The notes beneath the pieces were generated by a model that saw only the letters and a list, made by a program, of their open reading frames with translations, made no database searches and was not told where the DNA came from. A program made the translations under genes and the position numbers. Of a stretch of DNA of 34,053 nucleotides, positions 5,749 through 22,567 are shown piece after piece (the stretch's first letter is position 1; each line of letters opens with the position of its first letter). Source of the DNA: a virus; the IMG/VR virus record IMGVR_UViG_3300027852_000118, positions 1 through 34,053 of that record. One strand, given 5' to 3'.

Positions 5749-5993
5749 TGCAATCGACGACTGATAGCGTGTTAGAATCAATAACCAATATATTGATCCG
5801 CGCCCCTATAAATATGAGTGCTAATTATTATATTTTTCCTTTGTTAGGTTACGAAATATCATTGACTATAAATTTTACATTCATGGTCATTTTCACAGTG
5901 ATTAGTTTCGTAACTTCTTTTTTAATTCGTCGATTGTTCAATCATCAACCTGTTTACAAAACAATACTAAGGTTTTTTAAAAATGAAAGCTAA
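5748..5993 (+). CDS. small membrane protein
   Basis: The ATG at 5748 overlaps the preceding TAA (TAATG), giving 81 residues; an in-frame start further upstream at 5730 is less likely. One strong membrane segment lies at about residues 42-62 (FTFMVIFTVISFVTSFLI), followed by a basic tail (RRLFNHQ), so the C-terminus probably stays in the cytoplasm. A membrane protein inside a replication operon is unusual; it could anchor replication or act on the host envelope. It does not look like the holin, whose candidate is at the right edge. Confidence 0.6.
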   Translation: MQSTTDSVLESITNILIRAPINMSANYYIFPLLGYEISLTINFTFMVIFTVISFVTSFLIRRLFNHQPVYKTILRFFKNES

Positions 5994-6273
5994 AGACAGA
6001 AAAAAACAACTTTTGATAAGTGCTGTACAAGCGTGTGAAAAATACGGGTATCATAATTTCAATAGAGATCACATTGCTGAATTTAGCGGTGCTAGTGCTA
6101 CACTAATAACCGTTTATTTCCCGACTGTTACACAATTAAAACGTGCGATCGTTCGTTACTCTATTAAAAACGAAGTGTTACCAGTGATCGCACAAGCGTT
6201 AGCCGTTGGTGATAAACAGGCGTTGAAGTGTAACGACGAATTGAAAATTAAAGCACTACAAACAATTAGTTAA
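5983..6273 (+). CDS. TetR-type HTH protein lacking the ligand-binding domain
   Basis: A 96-residue protein whose first ~50 residues match the TetR N-terminal helix-turn-helix (YGYHNFNRDHIAEFSGASATLITVYF region, residues ~21-47). A complete TetR repressor is about 200 residues; the ligand and dimerisation domain is missing and replaced by a short helical tail. I know similar short TetR-like proteins from phages just upstream of primase genes. It is a candidate DNA-binding regulator of this operon. It overlaps the upstream gene by 11 bases and is 12 bases from the primase gene. Confidence 0.8.
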   Translation: MKAKDRKKQLLISAVQACEKYGYHNFNRDHIAEFSGASATLITVYFPTVTQLKRAIVRYSIKNEVLPVIAQALAVGDKQALKCNDELKIKALQTIS

Positions 6274-6285
6274 AGGATCTTTAAA

Positions 6286-8736
6286 ATGCAGACATTGCCA
6301 CAAGCTTTACAGCCTTTCGCTAACTATAAACAATTTGTTATTTGGCAAGCAATACCGAATAAAAAGAATCCTAATAAATTTGATAAAATCACTTTAAATC
6401 CTAACACTTTATTTAATCACAATGCACATGATCCGGCTATTTGGTTTAGTGCTGAAAATGCGTTATCAATGCTTAATAATTTAGGAGGTGAACCGTTCGG
6501 CGTTGGTTTTGTATTTACTGACAACGATCCTTTTTGGTTTTTTGATATAGATGGGTGTGTTGATGATTCAGGTAACTGGACAAACGACGCTAGATCCTAC
6601 TGTGATTATTTTGCAGGGTGTGCTATAGAAATCAGTCATAGTGCTAGGGGATTACACATTTTTGGAACGGGTGAATTTGATAGCAATCATACTAAAAAGA
6701 ACATCCCTTTAGGTTTAGAATTTTATCACAAAGACAGGTTTGTTGCTCTAACCGGAAACGGTGCGATTGGTGATGCTTTCCATAACCCTGAAAATAAAAT
6801 AACAGAATTCGTCAAGTACTATTTTCCACCTAAACAAGTGACTAATAATATTAACTGGACTACAGAACCAGATCCTAACAGTAGACCGCTAAAAACAAAT
6901 AAAGCGTTAATTAAAAAAATGTGTGACACTACAAGTGCGGGATCTGTTTTTGGTGCTAAAGTAACAGCACGCGATTTGTGGGAATGTAACGATGAAAAAT
7001 TAGCAGTTGCTTATCCTAGCTATAACGACAGTGACCCTTTCGATCGGTCGAGTGCTGATCAAGCGTTATGTAATCATCTAGCTTTCTGGACAGGTAAAGA
7101 TTGTGACCGTATAGAATTACTAATGGGCGAAAGTGGGTTGTTGCGCGATAAATGGCAAGATCGAGAACAGTACAGACGTGATACTATATTAAACGCTGTG
7201 AATGCTTGCAAGGAGGTTTACGGGTCGCAAATTGCTAAAAAAGAAAACGCAAGCGTTGACTGGAAACCCGATCAAATGATCGCAACCAACGGATCTGAAA
7301 TATTAGCAAATGGCGGATCGCAAATGGTAGCTTATGAAGATCGACCAACTTTCTTTAACAATCATTATTTTTTAACATCAAATTCAAATGTTTTTTGTCC
7401 GGATGGTGTAGTAAGAGGACAAACAGCCTATAACGCGATGTATTCAACCGTTGAGTTCTTAGAGGCGTTTGGGGGTAAACCGATTAAAGAGGCATGGAAA
7501 GCATACGTTACAGCCACTGATGTTACTCGCGCAGAAGTATTTGATCGCTCTTATCGTCCTGAATATGATTATTTGACTGTTTTTAATGATGGTGGGCGAC
7601 GATGGGTTAATGAATATGTTAACCGTGACGGTGAGCGTGTACAGGGTGATGCTACACCGTTCTATAATCACATCAAGCTGATGTTACCTTGTGATAACGA
7701 TGCTGAAATATTAATAAGTTGGATGGCGGCGTTCATTCAAAATGCCGGTAAAAAGTTTTTTTGGTCACCTTTTATTCAGGGTGTCGAGGGTAACGGGAAA
7801 AGTTTAATAACTAGAGTTCTTTCTTACTGTATCGGTACAGAGCATGTTGAGGATATAGATCCAGAAGATTTTTGCAACAGTGGCGGTAAATTTAACGCTT
7901 ACATCAGAAATCACAGGCTAGGTGTTTTAGAAGAAATTAAAACAGGATCAAGAAACCAAGCGGAAAACACTTTAAAACGTTTCATCGGTAACTCAAGAAT
8001 ACAAGTGCAGAAAAAAGGCGTTGATCAAGAAACAATCCCTACTTGTATTAATTTCATACTAATGAGTAATTACAAAGACGCGATCAAAGTAACAGATCAT
8101 ACTCGACGGTTCGCTATATTGTTCACTGATCAACAAGAAGTAAGCGACTTAGTTAAACAAGGAATGCAAAAAGGAGGATCTTATTTTAAAAATTTGTTCG
8201 ACTGGTTTCACAATGACAACGGATGGGGTAAAACAGCAAATTTTTTAGCAAACTACCAGATCCGTGATGAGTTCAACCCCGCCACATTAGCAGATAAAGC
8301 ACCTGTGACGAGTAGTTTTTTAGAGGCTATAACAGAAAGTAAAAGCGCGCCACATCAAGCAGTTATAGAGGCAATGAGTAGCGGTAAAACAGGCACTTTG
8401 AAAGGGTGGTTGTCTGTGCAGGCTTTAAGAATGATTTTACAAAGCGATTATGGTTTAAAAGCACCCAGCGGTAAAATGTTAGCTCAATATTTAAAACAAG
8501 AGGGTTATATTAAACACCCCGCTCTAACGAACAACGGACGCGCTACAAGAGCGATAATACAAGAGGGCAACAATAGATCAGTTCTATATGTGAGAGCCGA
8601 TAGTGTGCAAGCACAATTACTTGGAGCTAACAACGTGACAGATCACTATCAAAAAGCGCAAGGCTACATTAATGAACTGCCTTCATCTAAAACAAATCAA
8701 TTGAATCACAATAACCCGTTGACAACCATACAATAG
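6286..8736 (+). CDS. primase-helicase (AEP-like primase plus DUF5906-type helicase)
   Basis: An 816-residue replication protein. The N-terminal part (about 1-185) is a prim-pol/AEP-like domain: FFDIDG with D87 and D89 as the metal pair, then SHSARGLH (117-124) as the sxH nucleotide motif. The middle to C-terminal part has Walker A GVEGNGKS (499-506) followed by a conserved helicase/ATPase block resembling DUF5906/D5-type phage proteins. The last ~90 residues look like a winged helix. It should prime and unwind at the phage origin. AAAGGA precedes the ATG at a good distance. Its final codons overlap the downstream promoter cassette. Confidence 0.9.
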   Translation: MQTLPQALQPFANYKQFVIWQAIPNKKNPNKFDKITLNPNTLFNHNAHDPAIWFSAENALSMLNNLGGEPFGVGFVFTDNDPFWFFDIDGCVDDSGNWTNDARSYCDYFAGCAIEISHSARGLHIFGTGEFDSNHTKKNIPLGLEFYHKDRFVALTGNGAIGDAFHNPENKITEFVKYYFPPKQVTNNINWTTEPDPNSRPLKTNKALIKKMCDTTSAGSVFGAKVTARDLWECNDEKLAVAYPSYNDSDPFDRSSADQALCNHLAFWTGKDCDRIELLMGESGLLRDKWQDREQYRRDTILNAVNACKEVYGSQIAKKENASVDWKPDQMIATNGSEILANGGSQMVAYEDRPTFFNNHYFLTSNSNVFCPDGVVRGQTAYNAMYSTVEFLEAFGGKPIKEAWKAYVTATDVTRAEVFDRSYRPEYDYLTVFNDGGRRWVNEYVNRDGERVQGDATPFYNHIKLMLPCDNDAEILISWMAAFIQNAGKKFFWSPFIQGVEGNGKSLITRVLSYCIGTEHVEDIDPEDFCNSGGKFNAYIRNHRLGVLEEIKTGSRNQAENTLKRFIGNSRIQVQKKGVDQETIPTCINFILMSNYKDAIKVTDHTRRFAILFTDQQEVSDLVKQGMQKGGSYFKNLFDWFHNDNGWGKTANFLANYQIRDEFNPATLADKAPVTSSFLEAITESKSAPHQAVIEAMSSGKTGTLKGWLSVQALRMILQSDYGLKAPSGKMLAQYLKQEGYIKHPALTNNGRATRAIIQEGNNRSVLYVRADSVQAQLLGANNVTDHYQKAQGYINELPSSKTNQLNHNNPLTTIQ

Positions 8737-14807: not shown

Positions 14808-14904
14808 TAGAGCGTTTGGTCTACTTAGAGATCACGGCGTCTTTTACGTGCCCGCCATAGCTCAAACCAGCAACGACGCGGGCTGTAGAGCGTTTGGTCT
14901 ACTT
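14808..14904 (+). repeat. 19-bp direct repeat TAGAGCGTTTGGTCTACTT, two copies
   Basis: Copies at 14808-14826 and 14886-14904 are identical, 78 bases apart. Each includes one octamer; the second copy is followed directly by another octamer (GTCTACTTGTCTACTT). Confidence 0.9.
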
Positions 14905-14921
14905 GTCTACTTGAAACCAAC

Positions 14922-14959
14922 TTCTTAATATATACTATAGTTATTCTTAATATATACTA
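14922..14959 (+). repeat. 16-bp AT-rich direct repeat
   Basis: TTCTTAATATATACTA occurs at 14922-14937 and 14944-14959, inside the AT-rich core between the inverted octamer pairs. Confidence 0.85.
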
Positions 14960-15053
14960 CTGTATTATTATATAATCTATATACTATATATATTTATAAG
15001 TAGACAAGTAGACTAATAGAGTATTTAATATATTAAAATCAATGACTTAATGC

Positions 15054-15167
15054 TAATTAATTTGGTCTACTTACCAATTACAAGTAGACAACTAACTAGA
15101 CAAACCCAGTGGAAACCCTTACAGCTTATAGCCTACAGCCTTTTAGCTAAGTAGACCAAATTAATTA
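15054..15167. repeat. 19-bp inverted repeat TAATTAATTTGGTCTACTT
   Basis: 15054-15072 is the exact reverse complement of 15149-15167. The arms enclose 76 bases that include a further reverse octamer (15082-15089). Confidence 0.9.
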
Positions 15168-15191
15168 TATCTATTGTATTAGCGTTTCCGC

Positions 15192-15204
15192 TATAATTAA
15201 AATA
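15192..15204 (+). promoter_or_regulatory. terS promoter -10, predicting a leaderless transcript
   Basis: TATAAT at 15192-15197 lies 6 bases before the terS ATG at 15204, so a normal start site would fall on the A of ATG. There is no Shine-Dalgarno sequence. No TTGACA-like -35 exists at 16-18 bp spacing, so an activator may be needed; the nearest octamer is at 15149-15156, about 50 bases upstream. Confidence 0.5.
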
Positions 15205-15632
15205 TGAGAGAGCTATCAGACCAAGAATTAAGATACTGTGAACACTACGCTATTCATCGTAAGAGTGGCGCGGCGTATCGTCATGCGTACGCTTGTAACG
15301 GCTGGTCTACTGAAATGATATCCAGCGAGTCGTGGAAAATTAGACAACGCCCGCAAATCGCCCTTAAACTTTACGAATTAGCGGAGGCAGGTAACGATGC
15401 GTTTAAAGTATCGGTTGCAGAAAAAAAACAATGGCTTAAAACAATCATTGAACTTAACACTCAAGTAGTGACTGACGCCAAAACAAATCTACAGATTACT
15501 TTCGGTGATGCTAAAGCGGCAATTAGTGCAGTCGCAGAATTGAACAAAATGGATGGCGATTTAGCGGCGCAGAAAAAAGAAATCACTGGAATCATAGGGA
15601 TCAACATTGACAGTGATGACGACGAACTTTAA
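15204..15632 (+). CDS. terS: terminase small subunit
   Basis: A 142-residue protein resembling the Terminase_2 small-subunit family: N-terminal DQELRYCEHYAIHRKSGAAYRHAY (residues 5-28), a helix-turn-helix that binds the packaging site, followed by KIRQRPQIALKLYELAE, and a helical oligomerisation region. It forms rings that recognise phage DNA and load the large subunit. The ATG has no Shine-Dalgarno and sits next to the octamer-rich noncoding region. It overlaps terL by 26 bases. Confidence 0.88.
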   Translation: MRELSDQELRYCEHYAIHRKSGAAYRHAYACNGWSTEMISSESWKIRQRPQIALKLYELAEAGNDAFKVSVAEKKQWLKTIIELNTQVVTDAKTNLQITFGDAKAAISAVAELNKMDGDLAAQKKEITGIIGINIDSDDDEL

Positions 15633-16901: not shown

Positions 16902-18290
16902 ATGTCAGTTCACGAAATAACAACAAAGAGCAGTAACGAGCAGTCGTTTTTCGTTAACACGATAACTTCATTGTTGCGACGATTTGGTGGCGGGTCGTTT
17001 GGGATAAGCCCTGATGGAAAGAGAGATTATAATAAAATTTATGGTTACGGCGAGTCGCTAACATACAATGATTTTTACGGAATGTATGATCGTGGAGGCA
17101 TAGCAAACGTAATAGTTGAAAAAATGGCTAAAGCTTGCTGGGGTGAATTGCCGAAAATCAAAGCTAACGATGACGAAATATTAACCGATGAAATATTAGC
17201 ACTAAATAACGTCGGTTTTTTCAGTGCTTTGCAAAGAGCCGATATACTAAACAGGATCGGTAATTTTAGCGTGTTAGTCATTGGGTTGGGCGACGGTTTA
17301 GACTTAGACAAACCACTGGGTAAAGTAAGTAGTAATGAGATCAACGATCAGCTTTATTTCAACCCGTACAACTATGATGGCATCACCATTAAATCAAATG
17401 AAATAGATCCTGAGAGTCCGCGATATGGTTTACCTAAAATTTACCAGTTGTCTTTGACCACCACGGCGGGATCTAAAGACGTCACAAGTAACAGCGTGTT
17501 AGTCCACTATTCAAGAGTAATTCATTTAGCTGAGGGCGCGTTAGATTCTAAAATAGAGGGGCGATCCGCTTTACGTGCACCGTGGAATGCTTTAATTGAT
17601 GTGGAAAAAGTTAGAGGAGGTGCGGGGGAGGCTTATTTTAAAAATGCTAGAACACAACGAGTTTTAGAGGCTGGTAAAGACGCTCGCTTAGAAAAAGACT
17701 CAGACGCAATGAAGACTTTAAAAGAGAACCTTGATGAATTTGATCAAGGGTGGAGTAATACGCTACGGCTTCAAAACATGACGAGCAAGCACATGCCTGT
17801 CAGCATGATTAGCCCGCGTGATACATTTGACATAGCTGTAGAAACAATAAGCGGTCAAACTGGCATCCCCATTAGAATTTTAACGGGTGTAGGAGGTGGT
17901 CAAACAACGGGAAGTGAAGATCGGGCTACTTGGAACAGCCTTGTTATTGATCGGCGCAATGATTTTTGCAATAACGCATTACTGCAAGGTTTGACGATTT
18001 TAAGTAATGCCGGATTTTTTGATTTGCCTGATAACGCAAGCGTTGAATACCCGCCTCAAAGATCAACTAATGAAAAAGATCAGGCTGTTGTTAACAAAAC
18101 GAAAGCAGAGACGCTTAAAATTGTAATTGAGGCGTTAAATAGGCCAGTAGGCGATGAGGCGGACATCGATACAGTTTTAGAGACTGTGGGTTTAGAAGAC
18201 ATTGAAATTAACACAGATTCAATCAAGACTCACGAACCAGAACCTAAGAATAAACCAACCGATTTATCAGATCCTGATTTAGATGATTAG
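16902..18290 (+). CDS. portal protein (DUF1073 family)
   Basis: A 462-residue protein of the DUF1073 portal family, the dodecameric ring through which DNA enters and leaves the head. Recognisable parts are the N-terminal YNDFYGMYDRGGIANVIVEK region (residues ~54-73), the mid-protein HYSRVIHLAEGALDSKIEGRSAL segment, and GGQTTGSEDRATWNSLV near residue 340. It follows terL directly and overlaps the Mu F-like gene by 8 bases. GAGG lies before the ATG. Confidence 0.92.
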   Translation: MSVHEITTKSSNEQSFFVNTITSLLRRFGGGSFGISPDGKRDYNKIYGYGESLTYNDFYGMYDRGGIANVIVEKMAKACWGELPKIKANDDEILTDEILALNNVGFFSALQRADILNRIGNFSVLVIGLGDGLDLDKPLGKVSSNEINDQLYFNPYNYDGITIKSNEIDPESPRYGLPKIYQLSLTTTAGSKDVTSNSVLVHYSRVIHLAEGALDSKIEGRSALRAPWNALIDVEKVRGGAGEAYFKNARTQRVLEAGKDARLEKDSDAMKTLKENLDEFDQGWSNTLRLQNMTSKHMPVSMISPRDTFDIAVETISGQTGIPIRILTGVGGGQTTGSEDRATWNSLVIDRRNDFCNNALLQGLTILSNAGFFDLPDNASVEYPPQRSTNEKDQAVVNKTKAETLKIVIEALNRPVGDEADIDTVLETVGLEDIEINTDSIKTHEPEPKNKPTDLSDPDLDD

Positions 18291-20499: not shown

Positions 20500-20940
20500 A
20501 TGAGTCAAGTAATCATAGCTCTTTCTAACCAAACAGGTCAGCCTGTTATTAGTGAGAGAAAAAGCGCGGCTGGATCGGCTATAAAAGCCGGTTATTTGTT
20601 ACAGCAAAATGCCGCTAATGAAGTTTTAGAACACGCTGTGGCGGGCGGGTCAGGTCAAAAGCTTTTTGCTTTACCTAATTTACCTGTAGGTGGAACTACT
20701 TCTGATACTTACGCAGTTGGTGACAGTGTCCGTTTAGGTGCTTTTCACAGTGGTCAAGAGGTTTTTGTAAAATTAGCCCCTAGTGCCGCCGCGATTGTCA
20801 TAGGTGACGAAATTGAAAGTGCCGGTAACGGTACAATGAGAGTTCAAGCGGCAGGTGAAGTTCTAGCCTATGCTGTTGAATCCGTAGATAACTCAGGTGA
20901 CGCGGTAAACGAAGCGTTCATTAAAGTGAGGATTGCTTAA
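20500..20940 (+). CDS. head decoration (cement) protein
   Basis: The ATG at 20500 with GGAGGA upstream gives 146 residues; an in-frame start at 20431 would overlap the protease end and is less likely. The sequence is small, beta-rich and Gly/Ala/Val-rich (AAGSAIKAGYLLQ, AVGDSVRLGAFHSGQEVFVKLAP), like capsid-stabilising proteins encoded just before major capsid genes. Confidence 0.75.
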   Translation: MSQVIIALSNQTGQPVISERKSAAGSAIKAGYLLQQNAANEVLEHAVAGGSGQKLFALPNLPVGGTTSDTYAVGDSVRLGAFHSGQEVFVKLAPSAAAIVIGDEIESAGNGTMRVQAAGEVLAYAVESVDNSGDAVNEAFIKVRIA

Positions 20941-22120: not shown

Positions 22121-22567
22121 ATGTCAAAATTTAAAGAATATGTTGTGATTAAAGGCGGTGTTTGTGTTGACGCCAAAACTACAAAAGAAACACCTGTAGG
22201 GTCAATTATTAAATTAAGTGACGGTAAAGCACAATCACTTGTTGGTAAAGTTGAGCTTTTAAAGGACGTTAAAGCTAAAAGAGACAGTAAGGATAGTGAA
22301 AAAGTTGCTCTTGCTAACGACAAATTAGCAAGCGAAGTTGCAGAGTTAACAAGTGCTAACGACAAATTAACAAGCGAAGTTGCAGAGTTAACAAGTGCTA
22401 ACGACAAATTAGCAAGCGAAGTTGCAGAGTTAACAAGTGCTAACGACAAATTAACAAGCGAAGTTGCAGAGTTAACAAGTGCTAACGACAAATTAGCAAG
22501 CGAAGTTGCAGAGCTAACAGCTCAATTAGCAGAGCTAGCAGAGTCGATGAGCGCAAAGGCTAAGTAA
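22121..22567 (+). CDS. tandem-repeat coiled-coil protein
   Basis: A 148-residue protein. Residues 1-50 form a small domain (KEYVVIKGGVCVDAKT, then GSIIKLSDGKAQSLV), like head-tail adaptor-region proteins found after capsid genes. Residues ~65-134 are five 14-residue repeats (ANDKLASEVAELTS), i.e. two heptads per repeat, making a parallel coiled coil. The Ala/Thr residue alternates (KLAS, KLTS), so the true period is 28 residues. AGGA lies before the ATG. Confidence 0.75.
   Translation: MSKFKEYVVIKGGVCVDAKTTKETPVGSIIKLSDGKAQSLVGKVELLKDVKAKRDSKDSEKVALANDKLASEVAELTSANDKLTSEVAELTSANDKLASEVAELTSANDKLTSEVAELTSANDKLASEVAELTAQLAELAESMSAKAK
22313..22522 (+). repeat. 42-bp tandem repeat, five units
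   Basis: Units start at 22313, 22355, 22397, 22439 and 22481. Units 1, 3 and 5 have TTAGCA where 2 and 4 have TTAACA, an 84-bp super-period. The units are otherwise almost identical, and the last one diverges at its end. Such near-identity at DNA level indicates recent expansion, and copy number may vary. Confidence 0.95.

Follow-up and report, generated by a model that had tools for sequence, protein, structure and literature searches.

The polymerase of phage NrS-1 is known to need no primer and to initiate DNA synthesis site-specifically. It does so at the template sequence 5'-TTTGGTTA-3', its primase sites being GTGG/GTGA (PMC8718748), and the structural paper on the enzyme states only that recognition sites in the NrS-1 genome may serve as the origin (PMC7102993). 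Iteron origins served by a primase-helicase initiator are, as a kind, already known. In the case of SaPI Rep, SaPI5 Rep and SCCmec Cch2, short iterons are read by a self-loading helicase, which is often fused to or encoded beside an AEP primase; the SaPI origins immediately follow the gene of their initiator, while in Cch2 the C-terminal domain binds the putative origin and binding by two hexamers has been proposed (PMC7581432). The alpha protein of P4, as PMC4234260 describes it, binds origin repeats via a winged-helix domain, unwinds them and primes. ORF904 of pRN1 combines an AEP primase, an SF3 helicase and a winged helix, with the origin just 3' of its gene, and its authors have suggested that this class of proteins recognises stem-loops (PMC4234260).

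Here we describe an array of octamers upstream of terS in a 34,053-bp IMG/VR contig (hereafter the window, meaning this whole stretch of DNA), which has no end repeats and from which part of the genome is therefore probably missing. Sequence comparisons make it likely that this array is the replication origin of the phage and that the NrS-1-type primase-polymerase (PrimPol) encoded in the same contig is its most likely initiator. As in the SaPI and SCCmec systems, several PrimPol replicons have such an array directly 3' of the initiator gene; the window differs from these systems in its initiator, an NrS-1-type PrimPol whose binding is predicted, and in its iteron sequence. Moreover, the window array lies 6 kb downstream of the initiator gene, adjoining terS, and we do not file it as a SaPI-type origin proper because the arrangement of the origin directly after the initiator, which is seen in NrS-1, Achromobacter phage phiAxp-1 and the loci G008, L058 and L064, is not seen here. 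With NrS-1 the window shares the polymerase family (PF22763, DUF5906), and the start site of NrS-1 falls within an array of iterons just ahead of terS. However, the NrS-1 iteron is GGTTACACTTT as opposed to GTCTACTT in the window, a TetR-like gene of the window was not found in NrS-1, the window array is devoid of TTTGGTTA, and the window protein has no match to PF22761 or PF22762. P4 alpha offers a parallel for binding, unwinding and priming by one protein, although its primase is of the Toprim type. Like pRN1, the window has an inverted repeat (20 bp, with a 74-nt loop), but the pRN1 stem-loop comes without iterons whereas the window has both; the arrays suggest iterons, rather than stem-loops, for the NrS-1-type branch.

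Layout and conservation of the octamer array

The array lies in a 522-bp gap between flanking genes (14682-15203), for which the initial annotation had given 437 noncoding bases. The eight exact GTCTACTT octamers that it had listed are all confirmed in place and strand (Table 1), four of them reading TTTGGTCTACTT. The record, for which 1.3 copies would be expected, has no further exact ones; all eight lie within 14819-15156, and at least eight copies were obtained in 0 of 100 shuffles, indicating that the repeats exceed chance. The 19-bp direct repeat (14808/14886) is likewise as described, and the inverted repeat is present, but is perfect over 20 bp rather than 19. The tandem pairs do face each other across 85 bp; the intervening spacer, however, is not nearly pure A/T as had been claimed, since it includes 3 G and 10 C. 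The genome-wide peak in A+T content nevertheless falls within this core, with the array surrounding the 80 bp that are richest in A/T. When the whole genome was scanned in 400-bp windows for words repeated in inverted orientation, the array region ranked first (score 113; next 33; median 5). Second in repeat strength within the record is a window at 22121-22567, which is coding and specifies a protein with tandem repeats (SANDKLTSEVAEL).

A search of Rfam gave no match, and a scan for promoters and terminators returned nothing above chance and listed no promoter before terS. The cumulative GC skew, which had been suggested as a check, was computed; it tracks gene direction and is hence uninformative, with no switch at the array. 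Alongside the TATAAT ahead of terS, neither a -35 box nor a ribosome-binding site is clearly recognisable; the TATAAT, found 9 nt before the ATG in two relatives, can be read as belonging to a leaderless terS message or as having a non-promoter role. An ORF at 13277-13894, adjoining minus-strand genes, resembles a C5 cytosine methyltransferase or a related enzyme.

Table 1. Features of the array and of the genes discussed (window coordinates)
Feature	Position	Strand	Remarks
Outer left iteron GTCTACTT	14819-14826	+	Within 19-bp direct repeat 14808-14826
Left tandem iteron pair GTCTACTTGTCTACTT	14897-14912	+	With second 19-bp direct repeat copy 14886-14904
A/T-rich core, candidate unwinding element	14913-14997		85% A+T, genome maximum
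Right tandem iteron pair AAGTAGACAAGTAGAC, facing left pair	14998-15013	-	Invariant in both near relatives
Iteron in left arm of 20-bp inverted repeat 15054-15073	15065-15072	+	
Iteron within inverted-repeat loop	15082-15089	-	
GTGG in AAACCCAGTGGAAACCC, inverted-repeat loop	15109-15112	+	May be a priming tetranucleotide; statistically weak and no more than a lead
Iteron in right arm of 20-bp inverted repeat 15148-15167	15149-15156	-	
terS	15204-15632	+	TATAAT 15192-15197, 6 nt ahead of ATG
NrS-1-type primase-polymerase (PrimPol), DUF5906 helicase domain, C-terminal domain predicted winged-helix-like; proposed initiator	6286-8736	+	
Small TetR-like HTH protein, rival binder	5983-6273	+	No homologue found in several strong-array replicons

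The initial annotation had made the standing of the element depend on whether any relative has the repeat, and the repeat is indeed kept. Two viral contigs, G1 (43,482 bp) and G2 (38,111 bp), have a gene order in common with the window, with PrimPols that are 73% and TerS proteins that are 50-55% identical to those of the window. Each has four exact octamers, all in the gap upstream of terS, and G2 aligns at ~70% to the noncoding stretch 14891-15169, which an alignment of G1 at 68% encompasses. The right pair is identical in all three genomes, the left pair is represented at the aligned place in G1 and G2 by a degenerate GCCTACTTGTCTAGTT, and both retain the inverted octamers to the right as well as the GTGG of the loop. 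In the more distant L035 (PrimPol 61%, TerS 39%), the same gap has weaker variants, such as ATGTCTATATGTCTATTT and GCCTACATGTCTATTA, which are not significant alone in the terS-upstream repeat scan. A similar stretch also occurs just before the left pair, reading CTGTAGAGCG in the window (14883-14892), CTGCAGCGCC in G1 and CTGCGGCACC in L035.

The TerL of G2 matches that of the window over only 199 of 416 residues (59%), and yet the array is kept. Compared to G1, the N-terminal half of the G2 TerL (L015 1813-3279) differs, with TerS and the array being nearly identical, a pattern that has the appearance of a terminase swap beside an unchanged array.

A direct search of phage genomes with the noncoding region gave no match, and the first scans, of viral contigs with TerS and of genome contigs with PrimPol, returned nothing. 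Searching viral contigs with the 16-mer GTCTACTTGTCTACTT recovered 14 stretches, which by our estimate is about chance for a collection of this size; accordingly, most of them (L006, L007, L009, L010, L012, L016 and L017) were excluded, and the analysis relied solely on multi-copy clusters. L005 and L018 look like a separate repeat type. The unrelated L014 (56% GC) has GTCTAC iterons upstream of genes for an HTH protein and a D5-type primase; as it was found via the 16-mer, its iteron sequence is a product of selection, whereas its layout is not.

Arrays across PrimPol replicons

The same design, with facing iterons by an A/T-rich core, recurs with other repeat sequences in PrimPol phages and prophages, where the array is often directly 3' of the PrimPol gene. 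Phage records with a detectable PrimPol match number 597, with 86 of these matching over at least 80% of the PrimPol length. When the same inverted-repeat window scan was applied across replicons, the top window coincided with the array in the window itself, G1, NrS-1 (323; next 22), phiAxp-1 (148; next 32), Stenotrophomonas phage B2 (75; next 23), Vibrio phage VchM-138 (43; next 31) and L127 (40; next 17). The best window is at or just 3' of PrimPol in phiAxp-1, VchM-138 and several PrimPol loci from bacterial genomes and metagenomes (G008/L032, L057, L058, L059, L061, L062 and L064), and two further loci from the same sources have a near-best window at the PrimPol 3' end (L060, rank 2; L063, rank 3). 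Under a strict rule, which demands a rank-1 window centred 0-700 bp 3' of the PrimPol stop, 7 of 16 loci qualify as against ~3% per locus by chance; the resulting p of ~3e-7 is rough because the loci are mostly PrimPol-centred and not all independent.

The individual arrays vary on this theme. L060 has two copies of TTGGAACCC facing two of GGGTTCCAA, L057 has GTCCGC three times facing its reverse three times, and L058 has eight copies of CCGTGA followed by two inverted ones. The first GTCTAC iterons of G008 come ~50 bp after its PrimPol stop, and the pair AAGTAGACAAGTAGAC borders an A/T-rich core on the right, as it does in the window. NrS-1 (AB746912) has repeats of the iteron GGTTACACTTT in the interval from the PrimPol stop (17051) to terS (17459), with 10 of the 11 genomic copies of TTACACTTT at 17063-17376. 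Inside this array, at 17198-17205, is the single exact TTTGGTTA of the genome, as opposed to the two recognition copies given in the literature. The two exact copies of TTTGGTTA in the window record are at 20526 and 22718. That the window iteron is the NrS-1 site itself (TTTGGTTA versus TTTGGTCTA) was considered and rejected, as the near relatives keep GTCTACTT and not TTTGGT. An annotated hypothetical protein of NrS-1, NRS1_29 (L152 17055-17456), overlies the array and encodes a repetitive sequence; it is probably a spurious ORF rather than a gene.

The pattern also has its limits. Among 30 records with a related TerL, there are three NrS-1-type HBD matches, two of them over the cut-off (L127 and L035); L127 has a clear iteron and A/T array before terS and L035 a weak one, with L067, which is the same contig as L035, scoring with other words. 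Klebsiella phage KpV52, LAPP1, SppYZU01, Scuro and L035 have the A/T-core gap with repeats that are short and weakly or not enriched, and in 9NA, which has a PrimPol, no array was found in the part scanned. A second A/T-rich cluster in KpV52 (L147 13951-14350) has five copies of CGGGGTA, the same word as in its terS-upstream gap, and may be read as pointing to two origins or to a shared operator. The terS-upstream scan also scores L138 (a coding ORF repeat), L093 (a fragment) and L106, none of which has an HBD match. In L106 (3000-3700), which has another primase-helicase family, the interval separating the primase gene from terS has an A/T core and GGGCCTCA repeats. The choice of some repeat motifs and comparisons was made after the data had been seen. 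Two candidate regularities were discarded: ACCC-GTG as a conserved priming motif is observed 7 times versus 2.6 expected, but shuffles reach 9, leaving it as a lead only; and the iteron type tracking the clade of the PrimPol C-terminus (GGGTA in KpV52, LAPP1, Scuro and SppYZU01) shows only a modest enrichment.

Candidate binders and alternative roles

The PrimPol of the window contains the HBD (PF22763, 2.6e-20) and DUF5906 (4.8e-17) domains and matches the solved N-terminal primase-polymerase domain of NrS-1 (6a9w, 1.5e-19). The models of the NrS-1 head (PF22761) and tail (PF22762) match NrS-1 only and not the window protein, implying kinship at the level of the broader family rather than a detailed correspondence to NrS-1. 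For the C-terminal 147 residues of the window PrimPol (about residues 670-816), the model gives H-E-H-H-E-E, a predicted winged-helix-like order, with a core pLDDT of 85-91; a Foldseek search with this model had no match at E <= 0.001, and several of the top-ranked entries are winged-helix DNA-binding proteins. The AlphaFold model of the whole PrimPol was too poor (pLDDT 53). As a member of a family for which template-sequence recognition has been shown, the PrimPol, already named by the initial annotation as one of several proteins that might bind, is the best candidate binder of the array.

Conservation narrows down the other candidates. The PrimPol, the small TetR-like protein, TerS, TerL and other replication genes are conserved in G1, G2 and L035; among the genes between PrimPol and the array, two small ORFs after PrimPol have weak matches there and the rest none. 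The poorly conserved set includes three minus-strand genes beside the array and the multi-HTH protein (9793), which had been put forward as a binder but is not plausible as a general one because it lacks a homologue in relatives that retain the array. The TetR-like protein is a further rival: it could bind the array as an origin and then recruit the PrimPol, and its gene, which sits just before that of PrimPol, occurs in 13 loci, with all near relatives among them. We nevertheless consider this unlikely, as no homologue was found in the array-bearing NrS-1 and phiAxp-1 (both complete genomes), G008, L014 or L057-L064, which means that the gene is not required for an array; the protein may regulate replication in its own branch.

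Two further readings, both raised by the initial annotation, tie the array to terS itself, and the comparison of NrS-1 with NrS-2 bears on each. Pac sites are often found immediately upstream of terS, the very position of the array in the window and many relatives, and the array could thus be a packaging initiation (pac/cos) site read by a TerS ring. However, NrS-2 has a TerS and a TerL that are identical to those of NrS-1 at 115 of 128 (90%) and 380 of 398 (95%) residues, respectively, and, starting 11 bp before terS, the two DNAs are 87% identical; the annotation of NrS-2 features no primase and instead a recombination-protein/SSB block, TTACACTTT is found nowhere in its genome, and its terS-upstream region has no repeat excess. 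Almost identical packaging proteins and an almost identical terS hence do without the array, which argues against a TerS site as well as against general activator sites of terS. Nor does the repeat follow the terminase genes between genomes: the phiAxp-1 array, within 7246-7592, is directly 3' of the primase gene and 11 kb distant from the genes of the terminase, those of G008, L058, L061, L062 and L064 are beside PrimPol, and G2 keeps its array despite its divergent TerL. We accordingly regard a packaging site as highly improbable. Operator or activator sites for a late terS promoter are no more credible, for while the last octamer ends ~35 bp upstream of the TATAAT with no good -35 box, the facing pairs around the A/T-rich core reach 380 bp upstream, the near-identical terS of NrS-2 lacks an array and arrays occur away from terS; activator and origin roles could, however, coexist.

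Proposed mechanism and implications

Of the functions initially offered for the array, that of a replication origin is thus well supported, whereas those of a TerS site and of terS activators lost ground to the NrS-1/NrS-2 contrast and the PrimPol-following arrays away from terS. As in iteron origins, an A/T-rich segment lies beside the iterons, here between the facing pairs, and an initiator helicase is encoded in cis, namely the PrimPol with its DUF5906 domain, which we take to be cognate to the array. Besides layout and conservation, the association with PrimPol genes in unrelated replicons, the dissociation from the terminase and the position of the NrS-1 start site inside its array are the observations on which a PrimPol-served origin draws; from them we infer that the PrimPol binds and unwinds the array, that replication proceeds in both directions and that the array acts as an origin. 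On the model of SaPI Rep, SCCmec Cch2 and P4 alpha, we posit that the C-terminal domain of the PrimPol would bind the octamers such that the facing tandem pairs set two helicase rings head to head. These rings would open the A/T-rich core between them, and the primase-polymerase domain would start primer-free DNA synthesis on the exposed strands, with forks leaving bidirectionally, aided by the phage SSB and helicase.

In the literature searched, which covered few subscription journals, we found neither a defined array for NrS-1-type PrimPol phages nor a placement of the NrS-1 start site inside an array. The arrays provide a concrete candidate origin for NrS-1 and many related phages, along with a rule for finding others, namely to search 3' of the PrimPol gene, or shortly ahead of terS, for facing iterons that adjoin an A/T core. 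Known enzymes can thereby be used to test origin binding, the loading of two rings and the primer start. More tentatively, the NrS-1-type PrimPols might be widespread one-protein initiators with fast-changing, lineage-specific iteron origins, one branch of which has its origin beside terS. If true, the origin in this branch would be separated from the primase gene and situated where early genes give way to late ones, and its position beside terS could link replication initiation with late transcription.
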